A stretch of 48,081 nt of DNA from IMG/VR virus record IMGVR_UViG_3300044712_001627, positions 1 to 48,081 of that record. One strand, written 5' to 3'. The number at the start of each line of letters is the position of its first letter. Positions within the stretch are counted from its first letter, which is position 1. The position numbers were made by a program, and so were the translations under genes. Source of the DNA: a virus. Shown piece after piece: positions 8,338 through 48,081 of the stretch. The notes under the pieces were generated by a model that did no database searches, had not been told where the DNA came from, and saw only the letters and a program-made list of their open reading frames with translations.

Positions 8338-8376
8338 GAGGGCTTAACGAAGCCCAAGGAAGAAAGGAAAAAGCAT

Positions 8377-8640: not shown

Positions 8641-8641
8641 T

Positions 8642-9389: not shown

Positions 9390-9477
9390 ACCAGCATGGC
9401 GGAATGTAGACGCGGTGGGGCCTTGCCCCATGCGAGCCGTTCCTTCGGCTCATCCAGGTGCGAGTCCTGGTGCTGGT
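9390..9477 (+). tRNA. Atypical class-II tRNA-like element
   Basis: It folds as a full cloverleaf with a long variable arm. The acceptor is ACCAGCA/TGCTGGT, the D stem GCG/CGC, the anticodon stem GTGGG/CCCAT, the variable arm GAGCCG/CGGCTC (9434-9451) and the T stem CCAGG/CCTGG. The D arm resembles tRNA-Leu. Key bases are unusual: the anticodon loop is GCCTTGC, giving CUU with C instead of U at position 33; the D loop lacks the GG pair; and the T loop is TGCGAGT, with G at position 55. CCA is not encoded. It may be a degenerate tRNA-Leu, a noncanonical tRNA or a tRNA mimic. Confidence 0.6.
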
Positions 9478-9495
9478 CCCTTTCCTTTTAAGCCT

Positions 9496-10688: not shown

Positions 10689-10713
10689 TCTTTCTTGCTG
10701 TTAACTCCACAAT

Positions 10714-10741
10714 GGGGAGGGACTGCCAACCTCCCCCTTTT
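10714..10741 (+). terminator. Rho-independent terminator
   Basis: The stem GGGGAGG (10714-10720) pairs with CCTCCCC (10730-10736) around a 9-nt loop and is followed by CTTTTATT. It ends the 10032-10688 gene. Confidence 0.75.
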
Positions 10742-10751
10742 ATTAAAACTT

Positions 10752-11141: not shown

Positions 11142-11155
11142 TAAAGGAGCCCTTT

Positions 11156-11686
11156 ATGATTCCTTCAGAAGATCCCAAACTCTTCGAAGCGTTCGAGTCG
11201 ACCATTGCTATGATTGTCAACGCCTGGCCGAACGAGACAATCTTCCAGCCGGAAGAGGCAACCGCGGCCACGTTTGCGGCCCGCTTGCGAGATGCCATGT
11301 ATTACGCTCGTAAGTATCTGCCAAAATCGACAATGTTCGACATCGACGAGTTCGACCGAGTGCGGCCTAAGATGATTATCCAGCTAGATAAACCGCAAGT
11401 CGGCCAAGTTCGCGTCACCGCTAAAACAATGCCGGAGGCTCTTCGCCGTTCTTGTCTCTCCGCCGCAAAATCCTTCTCTCAACCAGCCGCTGGCGACGTT
11501 GGGCTCGGCCCTCTTTCCCTCGTCGAGGCTCGCCTCCTCGCCCGTCTCATCTCCTTCCGCCGAGCGAACGGCCCATTCATCTTCACCCCAGCGGGATCTC
11601 CCCGCGAGGACTTCCTCGCCTTGCAAGAAACCAATGACTGCCTCGTCGAGGACGGTCCTACACCAACAACTATGAAACTCTTATGA
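11156..11686 (+). CDS. Hypothetical protein
   Basis: 176 aa, with AAAGGAGC upstream. Mixed alpha/beta; segments such as ATAATFAARLRDAMYYARKYL are helical, and EARLLARLISFRRANGPFIF may be a second helical domain. No family recognised. Its stop overlaps the next start (ATGA), so it is coupled to 11683-12141. Confidence 0.75.
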   Translation: MIPSEDPKLFEAFESTIAMIVNAWPNETIFQPEEATAATFAARLRDAMYYARKYLPKSTMFDIDEFDRVRPKMIIQLDKPQVGQVRVTAKTMPEALRRSCLSAAKSFSQPAAGDVGLGPLSLVEARLLARLISFRRANGPFIFTPAGSPREDFLALQETNDCLVEDGPTPTTMKLL

Positions 11687-12141
11687 AATTCGAAAATCCT
11701 TATCTTCCGGACTCCGTCAAGGAGCCGGTCACAAAATGCACTCTTCTCATCCCCAACTCGAGGGTGAATAAATTCCGCTCGATCCGTCCGCGGAATGGCA
11801 CCCTCTCCACTGTAGCTAACATCCTTATCGAGAAATTATATGACACCTGCAACAAACGAGGCTGGACCCTCATTACCACCAGCGAATTCGAATGCTTCGT
11901 CTCCCAGTGCGAGCTCATCAACCCCGGCGAATTTGTCGGACCTGAGGCTCATAGATCTCCTGGAGAAACCAATAACTCTAATGACAAAGGAGGAACTGTC
12001 GATGTTCCTGTCGGAAGTCCATCAGAACGCCCTGTCGTCTCAGAGCCGGCAAGCCTCCCTCCGGCGGGAAGCGGAAAAGCTCGACCCGGAAAGCGAAAGC
12101 TCCCAGCCAAAAAAGACCCGCTCGACGAAACCCTCGATTAG
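11683..12141 (+). CDS. Hypothetical protein overlapped by another frame
   Basis: 152 aa. The first ~80 residues (CTLLIPNSRVNKFRSIRPRN ... FECFVSQC) look like a small globular domain with three Cys. The remainder is Pro/Gly/Ser/Lys-rich and probably disordered, and it overlaps a second open frame (11981-12184). The tail could be real, or the gene could be shifted into the other frame near 11930. Unknown function. Confidence 0.6.
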   Translation: MKFENPYLPDSVKEPVTKCTLLIPNSRVNKFRSIRPRNGTLSTVANILIEKLYDTCNKRGWTLITTSEFECFVSQCELINPGEFVGPEAHRSPGETNNSNDKGGTVDVPVGSPSERPVVSEPASLPPAGSGKARPGKRKLPAKKDPLDETLD

Positions 12142-12184
12142 CGTCGAGAAGATGGCTAAAATGATGTCCGCTTTTGAGGAATAA
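11981..12184 (+). CDS. Out-of-frame overlapping small protein
   Basis: 67 aa from ATG 11981 in the +2 frame within 11683-12141, ending 43 nt after it. MTKEELSMFLSEVHQNALSS and the basic SQPKKTRSTKPSISVEKMAK tail look protein-like. The open frame extends upstream with equally sensible residues (DLRLIDLLEKPITL), so a TTG start near 11936 or a frameshift from the upstream frame is also possible. Confidence 0.5.
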   Translation: MTKEELSMFLSEVHQNALSSQSRQASLRREAEKLDPESESSQPKKTRSTKPSISVEKMAKMMSAFEE

Positions 12185-12188
12185 TCTT

Positions 12189-12332
12189 ATGGACCGCGAG
12201 GAAATTATTATATTCGCCATTCTCTCTGTGCTCCTCTCCACTTCCATGTGGTTCACATGGCGGTTAGGTAAAGCACAAGGAGAACGCGATGCGTTTGCTT
12301 CCCTCCGAAAGGATCCCAATGCCAAGCCTTAA
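12189..12332 (+). CDS. Micro membrane protein (47 aa)
   Basis: MDREEIIIFAILSVLLSTSM spans the membrane once, followed by WFTWRLGKAQGERDAFASL and a basic cytoplasmic tail. It overlaps the next gene, whose ribosome-binding site lies inside it. One of five single-helix micropeptides of the early arm; function unknown. Confidence 0.65.
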   Translation: MDREEIIIFAILSVLLSTSMWFTWRLGKAQGERDAFASLRKDPNAKP

Positions 12333-12675
12333 ACCATACCCTCTGCAACAACCCGCACCAGCCCCTTGCGCTTGGTGCCACTACCCTATCGAGGTCCTCA
12401 TTGGCCTCGATCGGGACTCGGTCCCCGTTAAGGGACACCTCGTGCTCTGCATGAATTGTGGCGAAGTCAACCGCCTTAACCTCATCCCGGTGTTCTTCCC
12501 TGGCACTTACACCCTCGATAGGGAAGAATTCGCCCTTACAAAGGTGTCCGAAACGGGCCTTCAAGCCGAGCAAATGACTATCGGCCTCGCCAAGATGCTC
12601 GAAACCCGCGAGATGATTAAACGGAAGAAACTCGACATCCGAAAGGGTCCCAATGATCTCCCTACCACTTCGTGA
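12289..12675 (+). CDS. Zinc-ribbon hypothetical protein
   Basis: 128 aa from ATG 12289, chosen because AAGGAGA sits at ideal spacing; an ATG at 12319 has none. CAWC and CMNC, about 27 residues apart, form a likely zinc ribbon. The C-terminal half is a basic helix (GLAKMLETREMIKRKKLDIR). It overlaps the RecB-like nuclease start. It may be an accessory factor of the recombination module, but this rests on position only. Confidence 0.7.
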   Translation: MRLLPSERIPMPSLKPYPLQQPAPAPCAWCHYPIEVLIGLDRDSVPVKGHLVLCMNCGEVNRLNLIPVFFPGTYTLDREEFALTKVSETGLQAEQMTIGLAKMLETREMIKRKKLDIRKGPNDLPTTS

Positions 12676-13597
12676 AGGTTCTTTCCTCATCGACAATTCA
12701 TTCCTCGAGGTATTCGCCACGTGCCCCCGCGCGTGTCTCTACAATAACCTCTATCGCCGTCAGCTGGCCTCCATTCGGCCAGCCCTCCTCTTCGGCTCCG
12801 CCGGTCACCGCGTATGGGACTGGCGGTATAGCCGCTGTCTCAACGAACCGCCAAGCGAGAAAGTCGAGAACGAACAGAGACGGATTCTCGAATGGTTCTT
12901 CAAGAAAAACGTGTTCCCCGAAGACGACTGGCGGAACCTTAACTGGGCGGTCGAGGTATTCATCAAGCAGTATAATCGCCTTTACACCCTCGAGCCGTGG
13001 AACATTGTCCTCTCCGGCCAGGGAAAACCAATGGTGGAAGTTCCTTTCATCTTCCCCATCTATATGCACCGCCGTCCTAACGGTGACATCCTCCCCGTCT
13101 TTTACACCGGCAAGATTGACCTCCTCGTCCGTTGGGAAGGCCGCCTCGTCGCGGTCGATCATAAAACAACCTCCGTCCTCGGCGACATGTTCTGGGACGA
13201 TAAGAAGGTATCCCCGCAATTCCTCGGTTATTCCTGGGCTGCTTGGAAGATAACTGGCGAGGTTCCCTCCGGCTTTTGTGTCAATGCCGTCCGCTCGAAG
13301 GCAGCCCCTCTCAAACCCAAAGGCGGTATGGACGCCTGGTGGCTTGAGAATTTCGAACGCCAGAAATTCTGGATAACCGAGGATGACCTCCGCGAGTGGG
13401 AACTGAACACCATCGAGCTAATCAAACTCTTCCTCCATATGGCGGAGGGCGAGTCTTTCCCCCAATACCGTTATTCTTGCCGTTCTAAATACGGCAAGTG
13501 TCAATTCTACGACGTTTGCACGACTCCGCCATCTCAGCGCGGCGAGATGCTTTCGTCTGGTAACTTCCAGGATAACACCTGGTCACCGTTAGATTGA
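12653..13597 (+). CDS. RecB/Cas4-like PD-(D/E)XK nuclease
   Basis: 314 aa. The nuclease core has His52 (GSAGHRVW), Asp156 (YTGKIDLLV) and Asp169-His-Lys171 (VAVDHKTT), in the order seen in the RecB/Cas4 superfamily. Cys24 and Cys28 (CPRAC), together with two C-terminal Cys (SCRSKYGKCQFYDVC), could hold a Fe-S cluster as in Cas4 and AddB. Expected role: resection of DNA ends for recombination or replication, together with the ATPase and SSB-like genes that follow. It overlaps the previous gene by 23 nt. Confidence 0.8.
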   Translation: MISLPLREGSFLIDNSFLEVFATCPRACLYNNLYRRQLASIRPALLFGSAGHRVWDWRYSRCLNEPPSEKVENEQRRILEWFFKKNVFPEDDWRNLNWAVEVFIKQYNRLYTLEPWNIVLSGQGKPMVEVPFIFPIYMHRRPNGDILPVFYTGKIDLLVRWEGRLVAVDHKTTSVLGDMFWDDKKVSPQFLGYSWAAWKITGEVPSGFCVNAVRSKAAPLKPKGGMDAWWLENFERQKFWITEDDLREWELNTIELIKLFLHMAEGESFPQYRYSCRSKYGKCQFYDVCTTPPSQRGEMLSSGNFQDNTWSPLD

Positions 13598-30427: not shown

Positions 30428-30793
30428 TTAAGCCTGTAAGTTTTTCAAATACAATTTATGGTCTCCCGCGAGGACATAACCGAGGCTCTGCGGGTAAGGA
30501 GCCAACGGGGATTCGTCTCTGACGGGCAGAGTGACAATCGAATGGCCTTGCGCGGAGTAAATGTTCTCCGCGAAATTCAAGGCGTTTAAGGAATCTCGCA
30601 CTTGAGTGCGGTGGGTATCCATCCAGAAGAAAATGGTTGGGGCCGCCCCAATGTAACCAACAATCTGTGGCCCCTTCCGAACAACAAACGCTGGCGAGAT
30701 AATCGCGTGGTCATCTTGCGCGGCGCATTTGGTTAACAAGTCGATATCATCGACTCGACACGGTGAGATTCTCAACATTCTTTCTGTCATCAT
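30428..30793 (-). CDS. GNAT-like small virion-associated protein
   Basis: 121 aa. The order of secondary structure (ISPCRVDDIDLLTKCAA, AFVVRKGPQIVGYIGA, TFAENIYSAQG-like helix, LGYVLAGDHKLYLK) resembles a reduced GNAT acyltransferase fold. Such GNAT-like proteins occur beside podovirus nozzle genes. The acetyl-CoA motif is not clear, so a structural role is as likely. It overlaps the nozzle-like gene by 4 nt. Confidence 0.55.
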   Translation of the reverse strand: MMTERMLRISPCRVDDIDLLTKCAAQDDHAIISPAFVVRKGPQIVGYIGAAPTIFFWMDTHRTQVRDSLNALNFAENIYSAQGHSIVTLPVRDESPLAPYPQSLGYVLAGDHKLYLKNLQA

Positions 30794-33613: not shown

Positions 33614-36244
33614 TTAGTTACAAAGGGGAATGTAATAATTGGTTCCACCAACAGAGATACCGAGGAAGCCTTTTGTACTCTTACCACCAATCGCTGTTGC
33701 GGGGGAGGCACTACCGCTGCCTTGATAACCGAGTTTGACCTCATAAGCTCCAGCGTCACCATTAAAGGAATTAGTGAAGAATATTGTAGCCTTCGCGGTA
33801 AGGTTCGACGTTATCGTGTCGCCGGTTAGGTAGGCATTCTTAAATGGATACGAGGTTGAACCGAGATCCGCTGCGGCGTTGCGAACGGAGAGTTTGCTAC
33901 CATCGTATCCAAGAAATCCCCCAGTCGTGCTCGACATAATCTCGGTTGTCGTGGCGGCGATGGTTAGAGGTTTATATGTTGAGCTTAAACGGGAATGGAG
34001 GTAACCCCCGGCGGAGCTCTCCAAATCAACCTCGTTCGCGGCCCGCCGTTTGAAGGGGCTACTGGCAAAAGCTGAACCCGTCCAATAAGGGACATAATCC
34101 GTTCCAGTCGTGCTCGACAACATACTCGATCCGTTGATGGTTCCGATATTCGAGAGGTCAATAACCGCCTCGCTACCAGAGATATTCTTCGTTGCCCAGG
34201 TAATCCAATCATTCGTCGCCTTGTTAACCACGCGGAGGTTTGAATAATGGTAAATGATGTCTTGCGCGGTAAGACCTCCACCAACACCGAGGGTTCCCGT
34301 AACGGTATAACTCCCCGGAAAGGCTCCATTCGTAATCGTCGAGGCTCCTTGCGTGTGCCCAGGCATGGAGACGGAGACTCCGTTAAGGGTCATCGAACCA
34401 GTGGCATAAACACCGTTAGTAAAGATACCGTAATTGGCAAACAACGGGCCTGTGTGGAGGTTATTAAAGTAACCGTCGTAAAACGGATAGGCTGGCGTGC
34501 CAGCATAGGAGACGTTCGAGGGGAGGATGTGCTCTTTCAAGTAAAGGGAATTCGTAATTGTCGCGGCTCCAGTGGTGATGTCGCCGTGGACGGAGAGATT
34601 GCCGTTAATGTAACCAGGCTTGGTCCAACCGGTGACTTGTAAATTCTGCAATACGTTAGTCAGCGGATCGTAATTAAAAGCGTTCCCAGCTGCATTCAAC
34701 ATTGTTATACAGCCGAGGATTTCAATCCTGTCCAAATATCCTGTTATCATATCGTTTGTGCTGTAAGGGGCCATACCAATAAGGCAATCCCGGAAGGACG
34801 AGTTAAAGGCCCACGAACCGGTTTCGATATGACGAACCTGAGCGCCGATAATACTATTCATCGGAGCGTTAACATAAAAGCGGGTGCCGAAGAGACCACC
34901 AATAAAGTTATTCCGCCAGCTTTGATCGAGGATAGAAATCCCTGGCGTGCCACCGACGTTCTCGACTTCAAGACCATAAAAGTTGTTATTAAAACAGTTA
35001 TTTGTTATTACCAAGGCGTTTGTCGTAACCGCTTCAATCGTGCCGCCAACCCAAGTATTTGCTACGCTGTGATCCATGTAAACACCATTGGTTGAATACT
35101 CGCAAATCGGGTTATCTATAAAGCAGGCCCAAGATTCAAATAACTTCAAATTCAAATTCGGTTTCATCGCGGAGGCGAGACCAAGCTCCCCATAAGACAT
35201 CTTTATATTCTTCGCTCGAACAAGAACATTGCTGTTCAGGGTTAACTGCGCCCCGTTACAGTTAATCAAATACGAGTTGTTAATCGAAGAATGAGCCACA
35301 CCGTCGAAGAAGACAAGGTCTGTAACGTTTGTCGAGCCGATAAAATTAACCCCGTCAATCCTAACACCAGCCAGGAACGTCCGCGAGGCCCCGTAACCAA
35401 GCGGATTCGGTTGCCATATGAAGGCCTTGGCGACATTACTCGTTCCTCCGTAATACAATGAGGCCTTGCCCTCGCCGAGGATATGTTGATAGGCGTTAGT
35501 GAAATAAATCGGTGCGACGACCTTGTAAACCCCTGGCGGAAAATAAAGAGCCTTTAACGTGGCTAGGGCGGAATTCAATCCTGTCGTGCAATCAGTGGAC
35601 CCGTCTCCAACGCAATTATAAGGCGGGTAGGCGATGTTTACAATATTCGAGTTATACATAGCGGCCACCCTCGCCCAAGTATAATACATGTTATTCGCCT
35701 CAGTAACGTTGTCAGTCGTTAGGGGATTGAGGAGGTTCGTCGCCGTCCCCGCATACGTTGCGCTGGTAACGATGCTCGTAACCTGCGTGCCGGGGTGCGA
35801 GTGGGTCGAAGGGTCGAACAACGTCGGTTTATCGAGAACATTTGACCAATAAGGCGTAACAGCAACCGCACCTGTCGAGGTGGCCGATATCGTCAAATCT
35901 CCCGTTCCCCACAAACGGTTGGTTGGATTTCCTGTGATCTCAACATTCGGCCCCGCTACGATTGTGCCGTAGGACAAGCCGGAAAGGTAATTCAAGATAT
36001 TAGCATCCGAGGCATACTTGTTTGTCGATCCTTCTGGAAGAAGATCCGTTGTCGCATCGTTGGTGAGGATGGCGCCTGCCTTATAACGAGCAACACCGCT
36101 CGTATTCGTCCCTATCCGAATATTAGCATAATTCGTTAAATCGGGGAGGTTGGCGGTTGTTTGATAAGGACCGACATTCGTCAGGGCTCCGCGGGTCCAA
36201 CCGCCGAGCGATAAAAAGAGAAAAACAAAAAGGGCTTTTTTCAT
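33614..36244 (-). CDS. Tail spike with pectate-lyase-3 beta-helix and signal peptide
   Basis: 876 aa. Residues 1-20 (MKKALFVFLFLSLGGWTRGA) are a Sec-type signal peptide, unusual for a spike. Residues ~200-420 are a pectate-lyase-3 beta-helix: VGDGSTDCTTGLNSALATLK, LYFPPGVYKVVAPIYF and short N/G-rich rungs. The C-terminal part repeats YPFYDGYFNNLHTG and YPFKNAYLTGDTIT-like strands, as in trimeric fibre tips. Expected role: host polysaccharide binding and cleavage. The catalytic residues are not identifiable by eye. It overlaps the triple-repeat gene by 4 nt. Confidence 0.85.
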   Translation of the reverse strand: MKKALFVFLFLSLGGWTRGALTNVGPYQTTANLPDLTNYANIRIGTNTSGVARYKAGAILTNDATTDLLPEGSTNKYASDANILNYLSGLSYGTIVAGPNVEITGNPTNRLWGTGDLTISATSTGAVAVTPYWSNVLDKPTLFDPSTHSHPGTQVTSIVTSATYAGTATNLLNPLTTDNVTEANNMYYTWARVAAMYNSNIVNIAYPPYNCVGDGSTDCTTGLNSALATLKALYFPPGVYKVVAPIYFTNAYQHILGEGKASLYYGGTSNVAKAFIWQPNPLGYGASRTFLAGVRIDGVNFIGSTNVTDLVFFDGVAHSSINNSYLINCNGAQLTLNSNVLVRAKNIKMSYGELGLASAMKPNLNLKLFESWACFIDNPICEYSTNGVYMDHSVANTWVGGTIEAVTTNALVITNNCFNNNFYGLEVENVGGTPGISILDQSWRNNFIGGLFGTRFYVNAPMNSIIGAQVRHIETGSWAFNSSFRDCLIGMAPYSTNDMITGYLDRIEILGCITMLNAAGNAFNYDPLTNVLQNLQVTGWTKPGYINGNLSVHGDITTGAATITNSLYLKEHILPSNVSYAGTPAYPFYDGYFNNLHTGPLFANYGIFTNGVYATGSMTLNGVSVSMPGHTQGASTITNGAFPGSYTVTGTLGVGGGLTAQDIIYHYSNLRVVNKATNDWITWATKNISGSEAVIDLSNIGTINGSSMLSSTTGTDYVPYWTGSAFASSPFKRRAANEVDLESSAGGYLHSRLSSTYKPLTIAATTTEIMSSTTGGFLGYDGSKLSVRNAAADLGSTSYPFKNAYLTGDTITSNLTAKATIFFTNSFNGDAGAYEVKLGYQGSGSASPATAIGGKSTKGFLGISVGGTNYYIPLCN

Positions 36245-36777
36245 ATTGCGGAGGTTTCGATAATTAATTTCGGGCTGATCGGGTTGCTGTCGGCATCCTC
36301 TGTCGTGCAGTAAACGCGGTGCCAGGCGGAGGTTTCAACATTCTGCAATTTCATTTCAGCGGCGGGTGCAGTGGCGGTAGGGGTATCCTCGATGTTTAAA
36401 TGAACGGTCTCATCTCCCTCGTGGCCGGGGATCTCATCAAGATCGGTGCAATGGCAGTGGTGCCAGGAGCCAGTAACAATATCCTGCACGATTAGCTGTG
36501 TGCCATCCATGAGGCCGGAGATATGGGTGTCCTCGATAACGATATGGGGATCAACGGGGTCGCCGTTAGAATCAAGGGCGGAACAGAATACCCGATGCCA
36601 GAGACCGGTTTCCAAATGCTGCACGAGGACGTGGTCGGTTTCTGGCACCGCGGCAATGTTAAAACGGCGGAAGATTTCGATAAGAGACAACCACTTCTTC
36701 CGCCCCCATTGATCCGTGCCCCAGACCATATCCGGTCCAGGTGTCTGCAAGGGATTGACTAATTGTTCGGGTGTCAT
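36241..36777 (-). CDS. Triple-repeat tail-associated protein
   Basis: 178 aa. After an N-terminal QWGRKKWLSLIEIFRRF segment there are three repeats of ~40-45 residues: VQHLETGLWHRVFCSALDSN, VQDIVTGSWHHCHCTDLDEI and LQNVETSAWHRVYCTTEDAD, each ending in I-E-(D/T)-type strands. The W-H-x3-C signature is conserved in all three and is not from a family I know. It sits directly before the tail spike gene with a 4-nt overlap, so it may be the spike adaptor or an assembly factor. Confidence 0.7.
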   Translation of the reverse strand: MTPEQLVNPLQTPGPDMVWGTDQWGRKKWLSLIEIFRRFNIAAVPETDHVLVQHLETGLWHRVFCSALDSNGDPVDPHIVIEDTHISGLMDGTQLIVQDIVTGSWHHCHCTDLDEIPGHEGDETVHLNIEDTPTATAPAAEMKLQNVETSAWHRVYCTTEDADSNPISPKLIIETSAI

Positions 36778-36803: not shown

Positions 36804-37511
36804 TTAACCAGCGACAACGACAGGAATGGGTTTGACACGCGGAGGATTCTGGCTGTCACCGCCAATCCGGTAACTGGTGTCGCGCTTGCGGGCCTTGCCT
36901 TTCAAGGAATTCAAACGAGCGACGGCTTCGGAGAGGATAACAGTGGCGTCCGCCGAACCATCCTTCGCGGCTCGTTCGCCCGCTACGAAATAGGCGACCA
37001 GCATGTCATCGAGTTCCACCTTGTCAGTTGAAGGAGCGGCGTAATCCGTTGTGAAAGCCGTGAGGATCTTTTGCCCCGTGAAGAGGATTGTTGTTGCCTC
37101 AGAGGAAATCGGCCACACCTCGAATTGTGTGGAACCGTGGAAATCCCAGCGAGTGATAGGTGCAGAGGGCTCAGCGGCTGTAACATCCCCGGAGGAGAAC
37201 GTATTGTATTCTTCTGAACCGATACCGAAATCAAGGGGGAAATATTGACCGCTCCAATAGACCTCGGCCTTCACCGTGTGGAGCATGTCAATCGTTGTGG
37301 GCAGGGTGAAATAGCGGGTCCCTGCTGTAATGGCTACCGAAGCCGTTAATTTCATAAAAGGAAACTCGTGCTCCCCTGCGAGTTCCCTTTGTTTTAGATC
37401 AATGAGCGTGTAAAGGGACAAATCGTCCGCGGTCCCTACGTTTGTAGCGAGGGAAATCCTTAACTTCGCCTTTACCAGGCGGAGAACAGAAGCTAAAGTT
37501 GCGTTTAACAT
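36804..37511 (-). CDS. Head-tail adaptor (T7 gp11-like)
   Basis: 235 aa. The helical N-terminus (LVKAKLRISLATNVGTADDL ... LIDLKQRELAGEHEFPFMKL), the FTLPTTIDMLHTVKAEVYW strand and a C-terminal helix DDMLVAYFVAGERAAKDGSA match podovirus gp11-type adaptor proteins. Expected to form the dodecameric ring linking portal and nozzle. It sits directly after the small protein at 37515 and is bounded by palindrome copy 7. Confidence 0.7.
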   Translation of the reverse strand: MLNATLASVLRLVKAKLRISLATNVGTADDLSLYTLIDLKQRELAGEHEFPFMKLTASVAITAGTRYFTLPTTIDMLHTVKAEVYWSGQYFPLDFGIGSEEYNTFSSGDVTAAEPSAPITRWDFHGSTQFEVWPISSEATTILFTGQKILTAFTTDYAAPSTDKVELDDMLVAYFVAGERAAKDGSADATVILSEAVARLNSLKGKARKRDTSYRIGGDSQNPPRVKPIPVVVAG

Positions 37512-38011: not shown

Positions 38012-38039
38012 AAAAAAGCCCCGTTATGCGCGACGGGGC
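38012..38039 (-). terminator. Rho-independent terminator after the capsid genes
   Basis: On the minus strand GCCCCGT (38018-38024) pairs with ACGGGGC (38033-38039), and six T follow (38017-38012). It lies just downstream of the secreted protein gene at 38059, separating the capsid genes from the tail genes. Confidence 0.8.
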
Positions 38040-38058
38040 CAGCGCGAGGTAGCGAACC

Positions 38059-38673
38059 TTACGGAACCCAACCGCCAGCTTGGATGCGGTATAACTTCAA
38101 GGTCCCTGCCGCATTGTTGGCTGCGGTTGTAACACTTTGCAAGCGAATCGTGCCATTCCCCGTTAAAAGGAAACTCGGCATATTCGTAATCGTGCAGGCG
38201 GTAGAGGTGGATGGAGTAACTGCAACGCTCCAAGTTGTCGAGGTGTCGTAATAGGTCCCGCCAACGGAGCGCGCGAAGACAAATGTTACTGTATTCGTAA
38301 CGTTAGTATCACCGGCAGCATAGACGAGGGATACGGCACCTGTAGGAACATTTCCATTGACGTCACTCCAAGTAATGATAGGATAAGTCCAATCAGGGTA
38401 AAGCGGCCCGGCATTGGTAATTATCGAGTTGGTAATACCCATCGAGGTATTTGTAGCGAGCGGATAGAAGGTGGACAAGCTCGCCTTATTGCTGACAATG
38501 ATATTCGTATAGAAATTCCCATACGTGAAGGTGGTTCCAGCCGCCGGTGCATACAGGGTAATCGGTGTGCTGTAATGATCCGGCAGGAACGACATGGCTT
38601 TGAACTGAGCGGCCTCCGCGGGAAGGAGGGCGAGACCCAATAAAGCGGTGATGAGGATGATGAAACGTTTCAT
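38059..38673 (-). CDS. Secreted Thr/Asn-rich beta protein beside the capsid gene
   Basis: 204 aa. The signal peptide MKRFIILITALLGLALLPAE is followed by an AA-Q-like cleavage site and a Thr/Asn/Ser-rich beta body (FARSVGGTYYDTSTTWSVAV). It follows the major capsid gene and precedes the terminator. That position usually holds a decoration or head fibre protein. With a signal peptide, it would be exported instead of meeting the capsid in the cytoplasm. Function unknown. Confidence 0.75.
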   Translation of the reverse strand: MKRFIILITALLGLALLPAEAAQFKAMSFLPDHYSTPITLYAPAAGTTFTYGNFYTNIIVSNKASLSTFYPLATNTSMGITNSIITNAGPLYPDWTYPIITWSDVNGNVPTGAVSLVYAAGDTNVTNTVTFVFARSVGGTYYDTSTTWSVAVTPSTSTACTITNMPSFLLTGNGTIRLQSVTTAANNAAGTLKLYRIQAGGWVP

Positions 38674-38715: not shown

Positions 38716-39759
38716 TTATTGAATCCCGTAGACACCATTACAGTTTAACTGCGTGCAGACCAGCCCGCCGGTCTTCGTCATGGATTGCAGGAAGACGAAG
38801 TAGTTATACGGACGTTCCGGCTGGCGGCGTTTGTCGTCTTCACCTTCCATCGGAGCGTAGTAAACGCGGTTGCTGTCCAACATGACGCAGCGTTTCGAGT
38901 AACCGAGGTCATCCAGCGTCGGATCATACTCGAAGGTTCCCAGGCCAGTGAGGGTCAACTTGGCAATGCCTAGTTCGTTGGTTTGTTTCTCGAACCCCGT
39001 AACTGTGTATTGACCCTTGGCCTGGTATTCTGCTTCCAGCGCGGCGAGGAAGTCCGAACCGCAGAAGGCATTATCGGGGCGGCCTCCGTAACGGCGGAGC
39101 TGGCGGAGTTCGGCACGCAGGAATTTCGAAAGGGTTTGGTTTTCCTCCGAATATTGAATCTGCGTGTTATAGCGATGACGCCACCAAGTGTTCGTCTCGC
39201 GAGACAAACCGCCAGTCGAGCCAGTGGTCGGGGTATCGGTGAGGAGGGAGGTGATGCCGGGGATACCTTTGGCGTCTTGCGTCCCATCCCGCCAGAAGGT
39301 GGATTGCCACGCCCGAGACCAGGATTCACCATAATCTTCGAGGCGGTTGGTAAGAATATTCGTAATGGTAACCTTCGCGGCTTCCGAGGACTCGCGGGGG
39401 TTCATACGATCGACAATGGAGATGCCGGATTTCTTTAATTCCGTCTCCGTGATCCACAAACCAGCGTGCATTTCCTTCCAAGCGTATTGAACCTGGAGGA
39501 TGTTAGCAGCGGCCGTAAACGAGATGGCATCACCACCGGTAAAGCCAGCGAGGAACCCAGCTGTCTCGGACATAAATGTCCCCTGGACGTTCGTTGCGAT
39601 GTTGCCCTTGCCACCAGGGAAAGAGCGTTTCTTTTTCTGCAAAAGGCGGAGCAGCGGTTTGTCCTGCGTTGTTTGAGCAAAAGCTGCGCCTTTGAGGTAA
39701 TAATCTAACACGGCATACGTGCAGTCTGCCGCTACTGTAACACTAAGTGCGTCGGCCAT
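38716..39759 (-). CDS. Major capsid protein
   Basis: 347 aa. Position after scaffold and portal, size, and composition fit a major capsid protein. The N-terminal arm (MADALSVTVAADCTYAVLDY) is followed by LLRLLQKKKRSFPGGKGNIA and a body of mixed strands and helices (VTITNILTNRLEDYGESWSR), with the C-terminal YNYFVFLQSMTKTGGLVCTQ. HK97-type fold is inferred from context. The head assembles around the acidic scaffold encoded upstream. Confidence 0.75.
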   Translation of the reverse strand: MADALSVTVAADCTYAVLDYYLKGAAFAQTTQDKPLLRLLQKKKRSFPGGKGNIATNVQGTFMSETAGFLAGFTGGDAISFTAAANILQVQYAWKEMHAGLWITETELKKSGISIVDRMNPRESSEAAKVTITNILTNRLEDYGESWSRAWQSTFWRDGTQDAKGIPGITSLLTDTPTTGSTGGLSRETNTWWRHRYNTQIQYSEENQTLSKFLRAELRQLRRYGGRPDNAFCGSDFLAALEAEYQAKGQYTVTGFEKQTNELGIAKLTLTGLGTFEYDPTLDDLGYSKRCVMLDSNRVYYAPMEGEDDKRRQPERPYNYFVFLQSMTKTGGLVCTQLNCNGVYGIQ

Positions 39760-40877: not shown

Positions 40878-43007
40878 TTACTGAACACCCGCCGAGGTTT
40901 GATTAGCTCGGCTGGGAAATTGATTCTGGCGGGTAGGCTGGGCCTCGCCAGATGGGGGAGGGCCGGATGCTTGGGGCTCTTGGCCAGGAGCGGGTGCACC
41001 CATTCCTAGCGCGCCCATAGGCATCTGCATCCCCATAGGGAAGCAATCGTCGATCTCGAGCGTCTCGTCGAGGCGGCGCAGGGTCTCTTGCGCGATGAAC
41101 ATCGGCGAGGCGCCAGCGGCTTGTAAAATCGGTGCGGCTACTTGCCAGTTGGACATTTCAAGCGCCTTGTTCGGACGGCCTGACGAAGCGGCGACGATAT
41201 CGAGATAAACGAGGTTAACGAAATCTTCTTTATTCTGGAAATCGTCAGTCCAAACAGAGCCGGGACCAGCAATCCGCTCAACCGTGGCTTTTGGCAAAAC
41301 CTTTAAGCACATCTCGCCAACACAGTTAGCAACGACGGAGAGGAACGTGTCGAGGTCGTCCACATTCGAGGCGGCGAGGGATACCCGCGATTCCTCGTGG
41401 ATTGTCGCCGCGGTGGCTGTTCCTTTGTTCGAGCCAGGTTTCAGTGGAGTTGGCTCGGAACCGAGGGTGTAATAGAGGTCCTGGCTGAGCGGGGTTGTAT
41501 CGTGGGCGAGTGAGTCGATAGGATCTTTAATCCGCGGGACGAAGATCTTGGTAAGGTCGGTGTTTTGAGGAACCTTTAAGGGGATGACATCACCGGGCCG
41601 GGCGACTTTCAGCTTATCAATATCCTCTTGCGAAAGGCTCCCATCAATCGTGAAATATAATGGCTCGTTCCCCACTCGATGATCCCTCAACGAATCCCGC
41701 GAGCGGTTCCATTCTTTCTGAGCCGGGCGCATGATGTCGATGTCAGAGGGCGGATAAACACTCGCCTTCGATTTGGTGTTCGGATCGACTAGCACCTTAT
41801 TAAACGTCAAGGCAAAGATCGGCCAAACACAATTCGTATCGGGGAAGATAGGTTGAGGTGCCTGAACATAGTCATCGTGACCTTGCATTATGACAAACTC
41901 CGATTTGGAGTCGAGGTCCCACACCTTCCATATCGTTACCGGGAAAGGTGGAGGTAGCTCATTGTTCGTTTGGTTGCCGGTAGTGACCGCAGGCACCTCA
42001 AAAGAGCGCGACGAATCGGAGACATCGGTGCGTTCAATCTCCGTTCCGAAGAAAGCGTTAACCTCGTCGAGGTCCATATTAAATTCCTGGGCGATCCATC
42101 TTGCACCGACGAAGCCTTCGAGGCAGGTGCAGCGCTTGTCGACGATAATAGACAAGGGCGAGGGGAATTGGAAAATAACCCGCTCGTTATCGTTTTGCGG
42201 CTCGCCGAGGAGGAGGCCGTTGTTAAGGCTGGCGACGAGGGACCGCAGATCCTCGACCTCTGCGGAATCGTCATTGATATCTCCAGCAGCAATCTTATCA
42301 ACGAGGACCTTGATCCTCCCGAGCCGTTCCTTTGCAGTGCTTTCCGTATCAAGGCGGGACAGGGTTCCCTCATTCGGTTGCACGAGATCGACCGTCATAT
42401 ACCCCACTCCGCAAATGCAAACTGTTCGAATCAGCTGCTTCATCGAAGTTTTCAATGGCGGTTGCTGGTTATCTTGGAACCATTGGAAAAGGGTCTCGAG
42501 CGTCTGGCCAACCTTATCCAGCATGTCGCGTTGCAACCGCCCCTGCGCGTAATCGGTTAACAAAAGCTGGGAGGCAGCTATGGTCTCGGGCATAGCACCG
42601 GGGAGAGGCATTTGAGCGGCCAGAATAGATTCCATTCTGCCATCCCAGACTTTGAAATCGAGCCGTTTCTTGCGGCGGGCCTTCGTTTTCGGATTGCGGG
42701 CGTAGAGCTGCGCGACCTTCATCTCCATTTGGTGGAGGCAGAAGTTGGCAACGTAACGGGTTTCTTCATGGATCGACTCTTGCCCAACCCATTGCAAGCC
42801 CGCGACGAAATCCATATTAGCAATCATGCGGTCGAACTGCGGCTTGAAATAAGTCTTCGCATCTTCAACGGTGGCAATCCAACGCTTAACGTGGGCGGAG
42901 ACAGAGGCGGCGGGCTCGTCCGATTCCGGCTCGACGGGGGCCACGGCGGTTTCCCCACTTGGGTTAAACGATTTAATTTCAGGATTTTGATCTTCGTAGG
43001 GGTCCAT
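40878..43007 (-). CDS. Portal protein
   Basis: 709 aa, between TerL and scaffold. Residues ~40-110 hold VKRWIATVEDAKTYFKPQFD and a helical stretch ending in ARNPKTKARRKKRL. The middle has PSDIDIMRPAQKEWNRSRDS and the NEPLYFTIDG loop. The C-terminus is Pro/Gln-rich. This size and the motif layout fit podovirus portals that form the dodecameric DNA channel. Palindrome copy 8 lies inside codons ~9-17. The start lies just after TerL's stop (TGATATG). Confidence 0.8.
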   Translation of the reverse strand: MDPYEDQNPEIKSFNPSGETAVAPVEPESDEPAASVSAHVKRWIATVEDAKTYFKPQFDRMIANMDFVAGLQWVGQESIHEETRYVANFCLHQMEMKVAQLYARNPKTKARRKKRLDFKVWDGRMESILAAQMPLPGAMPETIAASQLLLTDYAQGRLQRDMLDKVGQTLETLFQWFQDNQQPPLKTSMKQLIRTVCICGVGYMTVDLVQPNEGTLSRLDTESTAKERLGRIKVLVDKIAAGDINDDSAEVEDLRSLVASLNNGLLLGEPQNDNERVIFQFPSPLSIIVDKRCTCLEGFVGARWIAQEFNMDLDEVNAFFGTEIERTDVSDSSRSFEVPAVTTGNQTNNELPPPFPVTIWKVWDLDSKSEFVIMQGHDDYVQAPQPIFPDTNCVWPIFALTFNKVLVDPNTKSKASVYPPSDIDIMRPAQKEWNRSRDSLRDHRVGNEPLYFTIDGSLSQEDIDKLKVARPGDVIPLKVPQNTDLTKIFVPRIKDPIDSLAHDTTPLSQDLYYTLGSEPTPLKPGSNKGTATAATIHEESRVSLAASNVDDLDTFLSVVANCVGEMCLKVLPKATVERIAGPGSVWTDDFQNKEDFVNLVYLDIVAASSGRPNKALEMSNWQVAAPILQAAGASPMFIAQETLRRLDETLEIDDCFPMGMQMPMGALGMGAPAPGQEPQASGPPPSGEAQPTRQNQFPSRANQTSAGVQ
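42958..42983. repeat. Genome-wide palindromic motif, copy 8 (inside the portal gene)
   Basis: The core TTAAACGATTTAA (42964-42976) has arms CTTGGG and TTTCAGG. The left arm is the same as in copy 1. It is read as part of the portal's early codons (EIKSFNPSG), so the DNA motif is kept within coding sequence. Confidence 0.8.
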
Positions 43008-43008: not shown

Positions 43009-44505
43009 TCAGCGGTCCAGATAGGCTAGTTGTTTACGTTGAAGGCGGTTGTTGTCACTTTTCTTGAGCCAGTTAAAGGTTGGGGTCCAATTTACGGGAG
43101 GGCCGTCGTTGCCTTGCTTTTCGATTCTCCGATTCGCGGGGATCATCTTATCGAGGCCGAGACCGAGATGCGCCAAAGCATCGACGAAATCATCGTGCAC
43201 TCCCGCGGGGAAACGGAGCAATTCATCGAGGGCATCACCATACCAAGAGGCGAACCGTGGGAGTCGAACCAATCCGAGGGAGAATCGGCCTCGTATGGAC
43301 TGGGCGCGGGTTGGCTTGTCATGGTGGGCAGATGAGCCCTCGATGTAACAAAAGGTATTCCGCTCTTGCATACGCTGGCGGAGAAACGGCCCGATGGATT
43401 TTAATATCTGGCCGTTCTCACCCCACCAGGTGATGGGTTTGTGCGTAGCGATGAGGTCGAGCATCTTTTCAACGACTGTGCCTGTATCAGCTCGTTTCCA
43501 GAAAAGATCGGGAAGAACCCATGTGACTCCATTTTTATCGACCCCGGAGAGGAGGAGACAAGTTGGATCGGACCGCTGTTTCTCGTCGCAAGCGTGGTCG
43601 GAGGCGGCATAGATTCGCAAATCCGCTAGCGGGGGCAACTCGTTCCGATCGTAAGTATTCGGCACAATCCAATTCCGCTGGAAGTAATCACCGTCTTCCA
43701 AAGTCGGCCTCTGCTGGTGCAAGGCGGCGAAGACTTCTGGATTCCGCATGGCGTCTTTATCGGACTTCGAATCAAACCATTCGGGCCAGAGGGACTCGCC
43801 AACGGCTCTTCCCAACGGATCATTTTGCTCCGCAAAGCGGGGGAGGCGGATGACTTCCCATTCACCTGGTTCGTTCTTTAACAACCGCCCCGCGAGGTCA
43901 TCATCGTGCCAGCGCGTCATGATAAGGATAATGGAACCGTTTTTCTCGAGGCGGGTGCGAAGATCAAACTCATACCAGTTCCACGTTTTTTCCCTACAAG
44001 ATTTGGAGTAGGCGTCTTCTTTCGAAGCAACAGGATCGTCGATGAGTATGAGCTGGGCACCGCGGCCAGTCGGTGACCCTCCGACGCCTACTCCGTAAAA
44101 TGAACTCCCATTCGTGGTGCTCCATTCGGCCGCGGCTCTCGAATCCTCGCGGAGGGTGTAGCCAAGAACGGCGTGATGTTCGTTAATAAGGTTCCTTGCC
44201 CGCCGTCCGAAGGATTCGGCTAGATCAGCGCTGTGCGAGGCACAGATGATCGAGGAACTTGGAGATTGGGCAAGGAACCAGGGAGGGAAAATAACGGAGC
44301 AATAGGTGCTCTTGGCCGAGCGGGGCGGCATGAAGACCATTAACCGTTTCCCTTTCTCGACGGCAACACCGCGCAGCTTCTCGAGGAGAAATAAATGATG
44401 CCGAGCTGGCTCGAATCCACACGTGCGAGCCCAGTCGGGAAGGGCTCGACGGGCCTGACGGCGTTCGAGGAGGGCGGCGGCTGCAATTTCCGGGGTAACG
44501 ATCAT
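43009..44505 (-). CDS. Terminase large subunit (TerL)
   Basis: 498 aa. Walker A is the variant MPPRSAKST (59-67), Walker B LILIDDP (152-158), and WHDDDLAGRLL follows as a coupling segment. The nuclease has an ASDHACDE acidic motif (~305) and VHDDFVDALAH (~440). This is the ATP-driven packaging motor and the headful or site-specific nuclease. The ATG overlaps the stop of the small lipoprotein gene (ATGA). The terminus type cannot be called, but circular closure of the assembly fits headful packaging. Confidence 0.9.
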   Translation of the reverse strand: MIVTPEIAAAALLERRQARRALPDWARTCGFEPARHHLFLLEKLRGVAVEKGKRLMVFMPPRSAKSTYCSVIFPPWFLAQSPSSSIICASHSADLAESFGRRARNLINEHHAVLGYTLREDSRAAAEWSTTNGSSFYGVGVGGSPTGRGAQLILIDDPVASKEDAYSKSCREKTWNWYEFDLRTRLEKNGSIILIMTRWHDDDLAGRLLKNEPGEWEVIRLPRFAEQNDPLGRAVGESLWPEWFDSKSDKDAMRNPEVFAALHQQRPTLEDGDYFQRNWIVPNTYDRNELPPLADLRIYAASDHACDEKQRSDPTCLLLSGVDKNGVTWVLPDLFWKRADTGTVVEKMLDLIATHKPITWWGENGQILKSIGPFLRQRMQERNTFCYIEGSSAHHDKPTRAQSIRGRFSLGLVRLPRFASWYGDALDELLRFPAGVHDDFVDALAHLGLGLDKMIPANRRIEKQGNDGPPVNWTPTFNWLKKSDNNRLQRKQLAYLDR

Positions 44506-44615: not shown

Positions 44616-45055
44616 GAGTGTAACTCCGCACGGGTAGGGGCGATAACACCGACAGGAATGCCCGTAACTGGATGGGGTTGAGGTTCATACAGGGCAAGGC
44701 GCACTGGATTCAACGAGGTCACAGCGAAATTAACGCAATGTTTCTCGCCCTTCATCGCTTCGGGAAAATACATGAAAAGGCCGAAGGCGGCGGCAGCATC
44801 ATTCTTGCTGGAGAAAGCATGAATCTCATGAGCGTGTTGTTTGGCCAGCCAGGAGAACTTATCGCAATCCCTCCGCGAGGAAAGCCATTTCCGCCAATCG
44901 AGGGCGGCATAGCGTTGAGCAAGACTGGCGGTGAATTCCCCTTCAAGGAAATCGAGTTCAAACGCCTCATACGAGTAATCCAACCAAATCATGTTAGACC
45001 ACTCGACGATCTCAAGTTTCAGAACAGCCTCGGCTATGTCCGTGCGAGAAATCAT
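44594..45055 (-). CDS. Papain/transglutaminase-like cysteine peptidase, endolysin candidate
   Basis: 153 aa. RRDCDKFSWLAKQHAHEIHA (Cys) and HCVNFAVTS (His), followed by LALYEPQ, follow the Cys-His-Asn/Gln order of small cysteine-peptidase/transglutaminase-like phage proteins. It lies in the lysis cassette with holin and lipoproteins and overlaps the upstream lipoprotein gene by 4 nt. No other lysin is visible. The murein target is inferred. Confidence 0.6.
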   Translation of the reverse strand: MISRTDIAEAVLKLEIVEWSNMIWLDYSYEAFELDFLEGEFTASLAQRYAALDWRKWLSSRRDCDKFSWLAKQHAHEIHAFSSKNDAAAAFGLFMYFPEAMKGEKHCVNFAVTSLNPVRLALYEPQPHPVTGIPVGVIAPTRAELHSCDFLLV

Positions 45056-45363
45056 TTTATCGGGTTAAGACCAGCGGCGACACCTTTAGCAATGGCTTCC
45101 GCGAGAAGGGAAACATTCGTCCCCGTAGTTTCTTGGCTTAACTCTCCAACGGAGGCCGATTGACTCTTGTCGGTCTGGATTGCCTTGAATTTCGCAAGGG
45201 CCGAGCGGCCCTCAAAGAACGTGGAGGCCGTGGCTTTCGTGGTGATCGTGCGGGTCGGTTTTCCTTTTTCATCGAGAGTCGAGACATCAGTTTGCGTTGT
45301 GGTGAAACGGGCGCAGCTGGGGAGGGCGAGGATAGCGAGGGCGGTGATGAAGTAGGGTTTCAT
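45052..45363 (-). CDS. Lipoprotein of the lysis cassette
   Basis: 103 aa from MKPYFITALAILALPSCA, with lipobox LPSC; the longer frame from 45408 overlaps the holin and is rejected. The periplasmic part is Thr/Lys-rich with a helical C-terminus (NVSLLAEAIAKGVAAGL). An outer-membrane location is likely. A spanin-like role is possible, though a second lipoprotein (44502-44615) could do the same. Confidence 0.65.
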   Translation of the reverse strand: MKPYFITALAILALPSCARFTTTQTDVSTLDEKGKPTRTITTKATASTFFEGRSALAKFKAIQTDKSQSASVGELSQETTGTNVSLLAEAIAKGVAAGLNPIK

Positions 45364-45560
45364 AATTCTTTGGCTTCGGATACTTTCTTCGCGTTGTTCT
45401 TGCTCCACCAGACGGAGATGGCTAGCATAGCAAGCCCAGCGATACCAGCAATCAACTCTTGGTCGAGTGCGGTTTGCGGAATGATTCCTTTGGCAACCAA
45501 CGAGGCCCCGATAATCGTCAGGGTCTTACGTAAAACCATCGCGAGCATTTCGTTGTTCAT
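45360..45560 (-). CDS. Holin, Pam3 gp28-like
   Basis: 66 aa with two membrane helices (LTIIGASLVAKGII and LIAGIAGLAMLAISVWW) and a basic end. The pattern (VLRKTLTIIGASLVAKGIIP ... SVWWSK) resembles holins of the Pam3 gp28 type. Expected to form inner-membrane lesions that release the lysin. Start and stop overlap both neighbours by 4 nt. Confidence 0.75.
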   Translation of the reverse strand: MNNEMLAMVLRKTLTIIGASLVAKGIIPQTALDQELIAGIAGLAMLAISVWWSKNNAKKVSEAKEL

Positions 45561-45916
45561 TTCTCTCCTTTCGTTGTTTCGGAGTGGGCGATTAGCATTT
45601 CTTTTAAAACATCCATCTTGGACGAGTTCTGGCGGAGGTCCGCTTTGAAATCGGCGTAAGAAGTCACCAGTTGCTGCAATGCCGTTTCCATCTTATCTAT
45701 TCGCTTTTCTCTCTGATTATCCTCGGCCACATGCTTTTGAAGGGTAACACTTCCGGCAAGCTCTATTGCTTGAAGTCGTTTCTCATGGTCGCGGATACAG
45801 GCCGCCTGGTATCCCGCCTGCCAAATGATAGTTCCAATAGCAATAGAACAGGTTACTATCGAGCACACCAGCATGAAGACTTTTATGTCGCGGGAATCTT
45901 TTTCCATAAGGTTCAT
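45557..45916 (-). CDS. Membrane-anchored coiled-coil protein, i-spanin-like candidate
   Basis: 119 aa. One N-terminal membrane helix (VFMLVCSIVTCSIAIGTIIW), then a long charged coiled coil (KHVAEDNQREKRIDKMETAL). It lies directly upstream of the holin in an ATGA overlap. The layout matches inner-membrane spanins or XhlA-type proteins. Its orientation and partner are inferred. Confidence 0.6.
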   Translation of the reverse strand: MNLMEKDSRDIKVFMLVCSIVTCSIAIGTIIWQAGYQAACIRDHEKRLQAIELAGSVTLQKHVAEDNQREKRIDKMETALQQLVTSYADFKADLRQNSSKMDVLKEMLIAHSETTKGEK

Positions 45917-46308
45917 TTCTTACCATCGTCGATGTCGGTTATTTCTACGGTTGGCACTTTCGATTTATCGGAAGTGAATTTGGCCTTATCATTTTCAGGT
46001 TTCTCTTTTACCGCAACCGGCTTTCCTTTGCCCTCGATAACCTTCCCATGATAAGCGCGAAAGTATTCAAGCATTCCCTTAGCAAACTTGGTGTTATTGC
46101 GAGGGATAGTGATTTCGCAATAACCATTCCCAGCGGCGTCAACCTTATTCACGATGAAAGTTTTCTCTCCACCCTCTCTATCAAGATTCGCTTTGACATA
46201 AGCGTTGCACTCATCAATGAGTTCAGCTGGAATGCAAATGCTTTGAAGGTTGTCTTTTCCGGCAAGCAGTGTTACCGATGTTAAAAGCAATGGGATTAAG
46301 GTTTTCAT
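45913..46308 (-). CDS. Small secreted protein
   Basis: 131 aa. MKTLIPLLLTSVTLLAG is a probable signal peptide. The mature part has ICIPAELIDECNAYVKANLD and a Lys-rich tail (VKEKPENDKAKFTSDKSKVP). Two Cys residues lie near the start of the mature part. It overlaps the next gene by 4 nt. Function unknown; an envelope-acting accessory lysis or exclusion protein is possible. Confidence 0.65.
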   Translation of the reverse strand: MKTLIPLLLTSVTLLAGKDNLQSICIPAELIDECNAYVKANLDREGGEKTFIVNKVDAAGNGYCEITIPRNNTKFAKGMLEYFRAYHGKVIEGKGKPVAVKEKPENDKAKFTSDKSKVPTVEITDIDDGKK

Positions 46309-46310: not shown

Positions 46311-46526
46311 TTATGCTTTCTGCATCACTTTATTCCATTCAGCGATTGCCTGTTCTTTTGTATCCATCGTAGGGCCTATCCAGTGATAAAGATCTTTCTT
46401 GTTGGCTTGATCCTCCCATCGACTAACTATTTCGCATTCCACCCAGAAACCACAACCGCATTCCTCGATACGAGCGGGATGGCCTTCTTGGCATTTAACC
46501 GCATCAATAATGGCACCAGTTGTCAT
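46311..46526 (-). CDS. Lar-like small zinc protein
   Basis: 71 aa, starting in an ATGA overlap with the LamG gene stop. EECGCGFWVECEIVSRWED followed by TKEQAIAEWNKVM matches the layout of Lar/restriction-alleviation-like and related phage zinc proteins, in which a Cys-rich core is followed by a helix ending in (E/A)-x-W-N. Function unverified; it is placed in the late operon, which is unusual for an anti-restriction protein. Confidence 0.55.
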   Translation of the reverse strand: MTTGAIIDAVKCQEGHPARIEECGCGFWVECEIVSRWEDQANKKDLYHWIGPTMDTKEQAIAEWNKVMQKA

Positions 46527-48081
46527 ATTCCATTCTCCCTCATCAATTGTTTACTCACCGATTGGATTTTCGATTGTGAAAGGATGCCGTTGACGATGAT
46601 TAGCTTTTGGAGCCAACCGTCGAAACCGCGAGCAGTAGTGGAGTTGTTCATTATATAAACCGCTCCTCCTGCTGCTGGAGTTCCGCTATTCTGATTTGCT
46701 GTTCCAGACAAAACACCATTCACATAAAAATTTGCCGTGCCTGATGCTGCTCTAGTAATGGAAACAACGTAAGCTGTATCTAAAGCGATTGAGGAGTTTG
46801 CTGAATAGGTATCGTTAACTGCGCCGGAGGTGAAATAAAGCTTGGTATTGGGTGAGTATACGCTCCATACGAACTTGCCGTTGTCGATTATTCTACCGAA
46901 TCCGCCCCCACCAAATCCCCTGGGTTTAATCACAGCAAAAATGGTAACATCTCCAGTCCCGATAAAATCCGTTGCATAGGAAATATGTTTAAGGCTGTTA
47001 TCACCAACTATGCTATACTTATTCCCAATCGTCGCCCCCGAATAAAGCAACCTGCTCGCAATCGTGGTTTGCGTGAAGGTGCGATTGTTACCGCTGAGAT
47101 CATACCATTTCGATACCGCGCCACCGTAGTAATCGACGCCTTGGCCTGATGGTGTATTGCCAACGCTGGTGAGGTGATTTGCGCCGATGGCATCGCTGCG
47201 GGTGATGTTTGCTGTGCCTGCGGAGTATTCTTCCAGAGGCCAATACGACATGGGATAAGTGGCGGTGTCTGAAGTCATTGAGGATGGCAATTCGCTTGCT
47301 CCGCGAAGGCCAATGCCGTTTGCGAATAGTGCGGTTTTCTCGTCAGCGGTTAATAACCTCTTTTTAAATCCCACTCCCTGAATACGTCCGTTGCAATAAT
47401 TACCGCCGCCGTCCACACTTGCAACCGTAAAAGTAGCAGTGCCTGTGGTTAAACCCGATGAGTGGTTTGCCGATACTGCTGTTCCATTATTGCTCTGGAT
47501 ATAGATTTTGTTGAGCGTTTTATCATGCCACGCAACTATGAAATGCCAGGTGTTTACAGGAGGAGATCCTAAGGTTGTATCGTAAACAGTAGTGACCCCG
47601 CTGCCACCGTCTGGAGATACCGCAAAACTAAATTTGTCCTGGGAGGCATCATAGACAACTTTAAACTCTCTTGCGCTTCCGTATTTCGCTGCAAGAAACT
47701 GGCTTGCAGTTTTCGAGTTCAAATTCGCCCACCCCCAAACCGTAAAATCAATATCCCCGGTTTGAAGACTCGCGCTTGAATTGCAATATAGGTATTGACT
47801 CGTGCCATTAAAACTCGCGCACAAATTTCCGTCTTTCGCCCACCCAGCAGCGATCCCGGCAGCACTGGGGATTTCGGTGCAGATGAGGGTGATGTCGTCA
47901 ATATAGAATGACGCGGAAGGACTCCCTCCATAAATATAAAAATTACCATTTGCTGTGGCAGTTCCGTATAAAGTATATAGCGCGTAGCTTGTAGTTAATG
48001 TCGCAGAAAGGTTTAAGCCATCCCCAAAAGCATAAAATACTGTTCGTGCATTAATGTTAGACTTTAGATAAGCACTGGCTT
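46523..48081 (-). CDS. LamG/carbohydrate-binding fibre-like protein, C-terminal part (crosses the junction)
   Basis: Continuation of the gene that starts at 1646: after base 1, reading resumes at 47957 in the same frame. The first segment ends the second CBM4/9-like module. A LamG module follows, with CASFNGTSQYLYCNSSASLQ and NSKTASQFLAAKYGSAREFK-type strands. A third LamG-like domain ends the protein (FIGTGDVTIFAVIKPRGFGG ... TARGFDGWLQKLIIVNGILS). Total length 1026 aa. Multiple concanavalin-like modules suggest several sugar-binding sites. The stop overlaps the Lar-like gene's ATG. Bases 47958-48081 duplicate 1-124. Confidence 0.85.
   Translation of the reverse strand, partial: ASAYLKSNINARTVFYAFGDGLNLSATLTTSYALYTLYGTATANGNFYIYGGSPSASFYIDDITLICTEIPSAAGIAAGWAKDGNLCASFNGTSQYLYCNSSASLQTGDIDFTVWGWANLNSKTASQFLAAKYGSAREFKVVYDASQDKFSFAVSPDGGSGVTTVYDTTLGSPPVNTWHFIVAWHDKTLNKIYIQSNNGTAVSANHSSGLTTGTATFTVASVDGGGNYCNGRIQGVGFKKRLLTADEKTALFANGIGLRGASELPSSMTSDTATYPMSYWPLEEYSAGTANITRSDAIGANHLTSVGNTPSGQGVDYYGGAVSKWYDLSGNNRTFTQTTIASRLLYSGATIGNKYSIVGDNSLKHISYATDFIGTGDVTIFAVIKPRGFGGGGFGRIIDNGKFVWSVYSPNTKLYFTSGAVNDTYSANSSIALDTAYVVSITRAASGTANFYVNGVLSGTANQNSGTPAAGGAVYIMNNSTTARGFDGWLQKLIIVNGILSQSKIQSVSKQLMRENGI
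47958..48081. repeat. Terminal direct repeat, right copy (circular closure)
   Basis: Identical to bases 1-124; see the left copy. The reading frame of the LamG gene is kept when the two copies are merged, which supports a real circle and not a chance match. Confidence 0.95.

Follow-up and report, generated by a model that had tools for sequence, protein, structure and literature searches.

Organization of the locus

The window, i.e. the whole 48,081-base stretch of DNA analysed, represents a circular or terminally repeated podovirus-like phage of ~47,957 bp, with a perfect 124-bp direct terminal repeat (positions 1-124 are identical to 47958-48081). Its late genes lie on the minus strand in the order small terminase, 1646-2506, LamG, 45913, 45557, 45052, 44594, large terminase, portal, scaffold-like, major capsid, 38059, 37515, tail tubular, 36241, spike, two tail genes, acetyltransferase and internal virion genes. 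The stretch from large terminase to spike holds the following features:

43009-44505, minus strand: large terminase, signal-less
40878-43007, minus strand: portal protein, signal-less
38716-39759, minus strand: major capsid protein, signal-less (phrog_9953, 3.9e-37)
38611-38673, minus strand: signal peptide of the 38059-38673 product, 21 aa, predicted cut between AEA and AQFK
38059-38673, minus strand: capsid-adjacent protein with signal, 204 aa, signal peptide plus beta-sandwich
38017-38040, minus strand: terminator-like hairpin followed by T5, 3' of the 38059 gene
36804-37511, minus strand: tail tubular protein A homologue, signal-less (by synteny and sequence)
36241-36777, minus strand: 178-aa protein without signal, between tail tubular protein and spike
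36185-36244, minus strand: spike signal peptide, ~20 aa, cut uncertain
33614-36244, minus strand: tailspike-like protein, 876 aa, with signal peptide (motifs GDGSTDCT and DLGSTSYPFKNAYLTG)

The small acetyltransferase-like gene amid the tail genes (30428-30793) keeps its position across the family, being an N-acetyltransferase in Microcystis phage Mae-Yong1326-1. A tRNA-Lys (CTT) gene is found at 9390-9480.

Signal peptides on late proteins

The usual expectation, also voiced in the original prediction, is that structural proteins of phages fold inside the cytoplasm; in one study, absence of a signal peptide was taken as support for the phage origin of a protein (PMC6199706). Signal peptides were scored with a simple heuristic of our own (n/h/c rules and lipobox) rather than SignalP, so that cleavage sites are approximate; its check set comprised E. 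coli OmpA, MalE, PhoA, Bla, DsbA, LacZ, GroEL and RecA. A Sec/SPase I signal was defined by a positive n-region, a hydrophobic h-region and small residues at -3/-1, and a Tat signal by an S/T-R-R-x-F-L-K-like motif before the h-region.

By this heuristic, all five late-arm proteins named in the original prediction showed the Sec/SPase I features and scored 19.3-26.9, while the remaining late proteins of the window scored 0, save the lipoprotein-like product of the 45052 gene. Whole-protein shuffles attained the real scores in 0, 1, 0 and 5 of 2000 trials for four of the five (LamG not among them), and the heuristic fired on spurious antisense ORFs in 1/56 cases in the window and 8/507 in relatives (1-2%). 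Moreover, the start at 38673 is supported by an AAAGGA motif upstream, the spike start (36244) and the 45557-45916 gene are each coupled to the preceding gene by an ATGA-type overlap, and the start of LamG (1646) and the stop of the 1646-2506 gene overlap. Chance or a wrong start was rejected as the source of the signals, and all five predicted signals proved convincing. The N-termini of the capsid-adjacent and spike proteins read MKRFIILITALLGLALLPAEA (followed after the predicted cut by AQ) and MKKALFVFLFLSLGGWTRGALTN (precise cleavage site uncertain), respectively. The other signal-bearing proteins and their neighbours are:

1646-2506, minus strand: 286-aa protein with signal peptide, no known domain (N-terminus MKTLLVVLLLVAAVIVPRAAT)
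1-1646, minus strand: LamG protein, N-terminal part with signal peptide (N-terminus MRFLLIFVTCLSLFADA)
46523-48081, minus strand: LamG protein, C-terminal part, two further LamG domains
45913-46308, minus strand: 131-aa protein with signal peptide, no known domain, adjoining probable lysis genes (N-terminus MKTLIPLLLTSVTLLA)
45557-45916, minus strand: single-TM, coiled-coil-like protein
45052-45363, minus strand: lipoprotein-like protein, lipobox ALPSC

LamG is a single 1026-aa gene spanning the circular join (1646 to 1, then 47957 to 46523). A sixth export signal, the lipobox-like MKPYFITALAILALPSC, begins at the inner start 45363 of the 45052 gene, whose product is a possible outer spanin; that of 45557-45916 is possibly an inner spanin or a holin. 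Together with the small signal protein these form a probable lysis-type cluster (45052-46308) upstream of the large terminase, and similar genes follow the spike in relatives. The 45913-46308 protein, which adjoins transmembrane and lipoprotein genes, carries neither an adhesin nor an enzyme domain, so that its role may lie in lysis and not in adhesion.

The capsid-adjacent protein

In the structure model of the 38059 product (pLDDT 68), a helix at the N-terminus corresponds to the signal and a beta-sandwich makes up the remaining fold. Foldseek with this model returned loose matches alone, namely carbohydrate-binding modules and various proteins of the jelly-roll type, and the predicted fold resembles carbohydrate-binding modules as loosely as it does virion proteins; a PDB profile search gave no match. 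An outer-membrane beta-barrel like Lambda Lom was rejected, the model being a soluble-type beta-sandwich. The protein is the founder of a new, clade-wide family.

In the window the terminator-like hairpin lies 3' of the 38059 gene. Among 27 signal-less relatives, by contrast, 11 have a hairpin directly 3' of the capsid gene; a window-type terminator was undetected in the 14 clade relatives. That the hairpin comes after the 38059 gene suggests that this gene belongs to the capsid transcription unit and is co-expressed with the capsid. After the predicted cut, the capsid-adjacent protein carries an [FL][LIV][NSG] motif around mature residue 8 in 11/15 members versus 20/213 control windows; it was picked after viewing the alignment, and its p-value is descriptive.

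Conservation of the signals among relatives

Approximately 200 viral-contig loci were gathered via capsid and portal alignments built from two cultured relatives; when the 38059 protein and the capsid protein were used as single queries against viral contigs, no match was obtained. A signal-bearing gene lies directly after the major capsid gene in 15 related phages: the window and 14 uncultivated phages (L005, L006, L007, L085, L157, L158, L159/L161, L160, L162, L163, L164, L165/L166, L167 and L171). The encoded proteins are homologous across the clade at 21-38% identity, and the signal is present in 15/15. In the major capsid protein tree, 13 representatives plus L186 form a clade with 100/100 support, and the 13 alone lie on one side of a weakly supported branch (71/83). 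L186 is the sole clade member without the post-capsid gene; it also lacks the gene between the tail tubular and stabilisation genes, and no signals were found in its 9-kb fragment. In L085 two tandem signal genes follow the capsid (6582-8711), the first being the closest 38059 homologue (38%) and the second carrying fibre-like repeats.

Outside the clade, the typical order is capsid, a 100-160-aa gene (MQIANC... type) and the tail tubular gene. Since the post-capsid slot is there mostly empty or, in five relatives (EVC08_002 of Rhizobium phage RHph_N65, L019, L065, L196 and L198), holds an unrelated signal-less protein of ~300 aa, it is not essential. Homology between the 38059 family and this signal-less family was rejected (hhalign probability 0.1%).

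Counting late proteins of 100 aa or more, signals were found in 48/228 for the clade versus 12/1028 for other family loci (Fisher p 7e-27). Within 13 clade loci (window excluded), they occurred in 0/83 genes through the capsid gene and in 44/128 beyond it, and elsewhere in four near-complete clade genomes (101 genes) none was detected. Unlike its clade relatives, the window carries three further signal proteins on the upstream side of the large terminase.

Signals recur at a second constant site, the spike position, where the gene comes next after that of a ~240-aa protein encoded behind tail tubular A. The cargo at this site varies: beta-helix (L160, with a tail spike phrog and a Beta_helix match), GDSL/SGNH esterase (L167), LamG (L159, L162 and L166), and FN3 in L171, where the protein (10455-12833) carries alpha-galactosidase (melibiase) domains and a signal peptide. 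The window spike has a single, weak family match (phrog_5413 minor tail, 1e-6), and its single-sequence structure model gave no usable fold (pLDDT 30). No large spike or fibre candidate without a signal was found in the near-complete L005, L006 and L163; long fibre-like proteins without signal are also present in L007, L158 and L160. Several clade phages carry PF00072 response-regulator genes between the spike and stabilisation genes; stand-alone receiver domains lie at L005:16246-16680, L006:15609-16034, L006:16559-17023 and L166:16287-16718, and L159 has a LuxR-type HTH there.

Marks of probable export

Several features bear on the processing of these signals: i) Gln occupies position +1 in 19/48 clade signals (40%) versus 4.1% background (p 1e-14), and in 0/5 of the window's own named signals; ii) Tat-type twin-arginine motifs, absent from the window, precede the h-region in two relatives (PRRKFLGG and SRRQFVKTG; L157 and L166); iii) a few lipoboxes occur in the same stretch as these signals. 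Gln at the predicted +1 position is an independent mark of signal-peptidase processing. It partly fits the Bacteroidetes Q-rule, under which most SPase-I substrates carry Gln after the cut (PMC5837995; PMC10653852; Verrucomicrobia were outside the test set of the former) and thereby suggests Bacteroidota hosts for several clade members. On the host side, the window contained no Bacteroidetes-type promoter motif, two scans of genome contigs for prophages or hosts returned no match, and SD use in relatives showed no clear excess over control. Export of tail proteins by all Bacteroidota phages was rejected, as the tail proteins examined in crAss001, B124-14 and phi40:1 lack signals.

The original prediction had read the signals as export of adhesive or depolymerising proteins, with three fates suggested for them: coating the host surface, digesting matrix, or attaching to virions after lysis. 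Several of the proteins do carry adhesin or hydrolase domains, in keeping with that guess. Its export part stands: with signals kept in 15 genomes at 21-38% identity, Tat-type motifs in two relatives, the Q-rule, and LamG, beta-helix, GDSL, melibiase and FN3 cargo, the signal proteins of the window and clade are very probably exported. The label "adhesive or depolymerising", on the other hand, does not fit the 45913-46308 protein.

A proposed explanation and its rivals

We propose that the signals would route these proteins out of the cytoplasm via the host Sec pathway (in two relatives, probably Tat), where signal peptidase would cut them. The signal-less core virion (portal, capsid and tail tube) would assemble in the cytoplasm, and a second set from the same operon, comprising the capsid-adjacent beta-sandwich protein and the spike, lectin and hydrolase proteins, would be kept beyond the inner membrane. 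At or after lysis the mature proteins would dock onto virions, perhaps via their conserved mature N-termini, and supply the receptor-binding and surface-binding parts of the particle. What is observed are the signals, how they are conserved and where they lie, and the cargo domains; the chain of export, cleavage and docking is deduced from these, and we regard it as a whole as evenly poised between right and wrong. Its generalization, a two-compartment assembly in a tailed-phage lineage in which the core is cytoplasmic and capsid-binding and receptor-binding/depolymerase proteins are exported, cut and fitted from outside at lysis, is advanced tentatively, as somewhat short of an even prospect.

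The rival that survives best, although we consider it rather unlikely, is that the proteins are exported and never enter the virion, acting instead on the surface or surroundings of the infected cell by blocking superinfection at receptors, breaking down capsule or matrix so that progeny are freed, or sticking debris together. LamG, GDSL, melibiase and FN3 cargo is indeed typical of secreted host proteins, and two phage systems offer precedents. Lambda Lom is, like the clade proteins, a signal-bearing protein encoded within the tail region, but it is a single outer-membrane barrel, neither spike nor capsid-adjacent (PMC12309495; L215). Nixviridae of Porphyromonas gingivalis carry genes whose signal peptides likewise obey the Q-rule and which were read by their authors as host-surface modifiers, yet their function is unassigned and nothing ties them to spikes or to the post-capsid slot (PMC10367356). 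Against a purely non-virion role stand the tail-fibre motifs and PHROG minor-tail match of the window spike, and the annotation of proteins of the Cellulophaga homologue type as virion-detected. Moreover, since a tailed phage requires a receptor-binding protein and the three near-complete relatives L005, L006 and L163 offer only signal-bearing spike candidates, incorporation into the virion is favoured.

A quite improbable alternative keeps the proteins inside the cell: the hydrophobic N-terminus would be a propeptide or membrane tether in cytoplasmic virion assembly, either removed by a phage protease or retained. It would place the proteins at the assembly site, where virions need them, and prohead-protease removal of signal-like N-termini has been proposed for P. 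gingivalis phage capsids (PMC10367356); however, the full n/h/c architecture, the Q-rule at +1, the Tat-type motifs and a few lipoboxes in the same stretch point to host export enzymes. Equally doubtful is a moron origin, in which genes for secreted proteins would have been captured from hosts recently, their signals being remnants and their products sharing no role. Cargo domains do differ strongly between members, and the spike, 1646-2506 and LamG proteins of the window have few clade relatives or none; yet the post-capsid gene has been inherited vertically at a single position throughout the clade, L186 excepted, its signal kept despite heavy divergence.

Implications

By the view commonly taught, the cytoplasm is where tailed phages carry out all of their assembly. 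An export signal conserved on a capsid-adjacent protein and on the sole spike candidates of several genomes raises the testable question of whether some virion parts are exported first and attached later. If so, searches for receptor-binding proteins would change, since signal peptides now count toward a bacterial rather than phage origin, and the production of recombinant depolymerases and the proteomic reading of infected-cell surfaces would be affected.

Comparison with known systems

No account of tailed phages that export a spike or a capsid-adjacent protein was found in the literature searched, an absence that is not proof. Among other viruses, filamentous phage coat proteins (M13 pIII and pVIII) take the Sec pathway before assembly. 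M13 thus resembles our proposal in passing virion proteins through Sec, but is an unrelated virus type that assembles at the membrane and does not lyse its host. The nearest cultured relatives, Mae-Yong1326-1 and RHph_N65, share the window's gene order, capsid (38% and 32% identity) and portal (30%); unlike the window, their virion genes lack convincing signal peptides (one marginal match in N65).

A close parallel lies in Cellulophaga phages, which like the clade carry Sec signals on consecutive proteins at the tail end of the virion operon, several of them cut before Q, and in some of which the following gene is annotated as a pectate lyase. In phi19:1 four consecutive proteins, gp101, gp102, gp103 and gp104 (L222), all bear signals, as do gp085 and gp086 of phi18:3; homologues occur in phi13:2, phi46:3, phi19:3, Nekkels_1 and Ingeline_1, and thus across further Cellulophaga phage families. 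These phages belong to other families and no capsid-adjacent signal protein was seen in them, and no paper in the literature searched discusses the signals of their tail proteins. GenBank notes nevertheless describe phi19:1 gp101-gp104 and phi18:3 gp085-086 as structural by virion MS/MS (record annotation rather than re-examined data). Because these records report signal-bearing tail proteins in virions, it is plausible, by analogy, that the window's proteins also join the virion.
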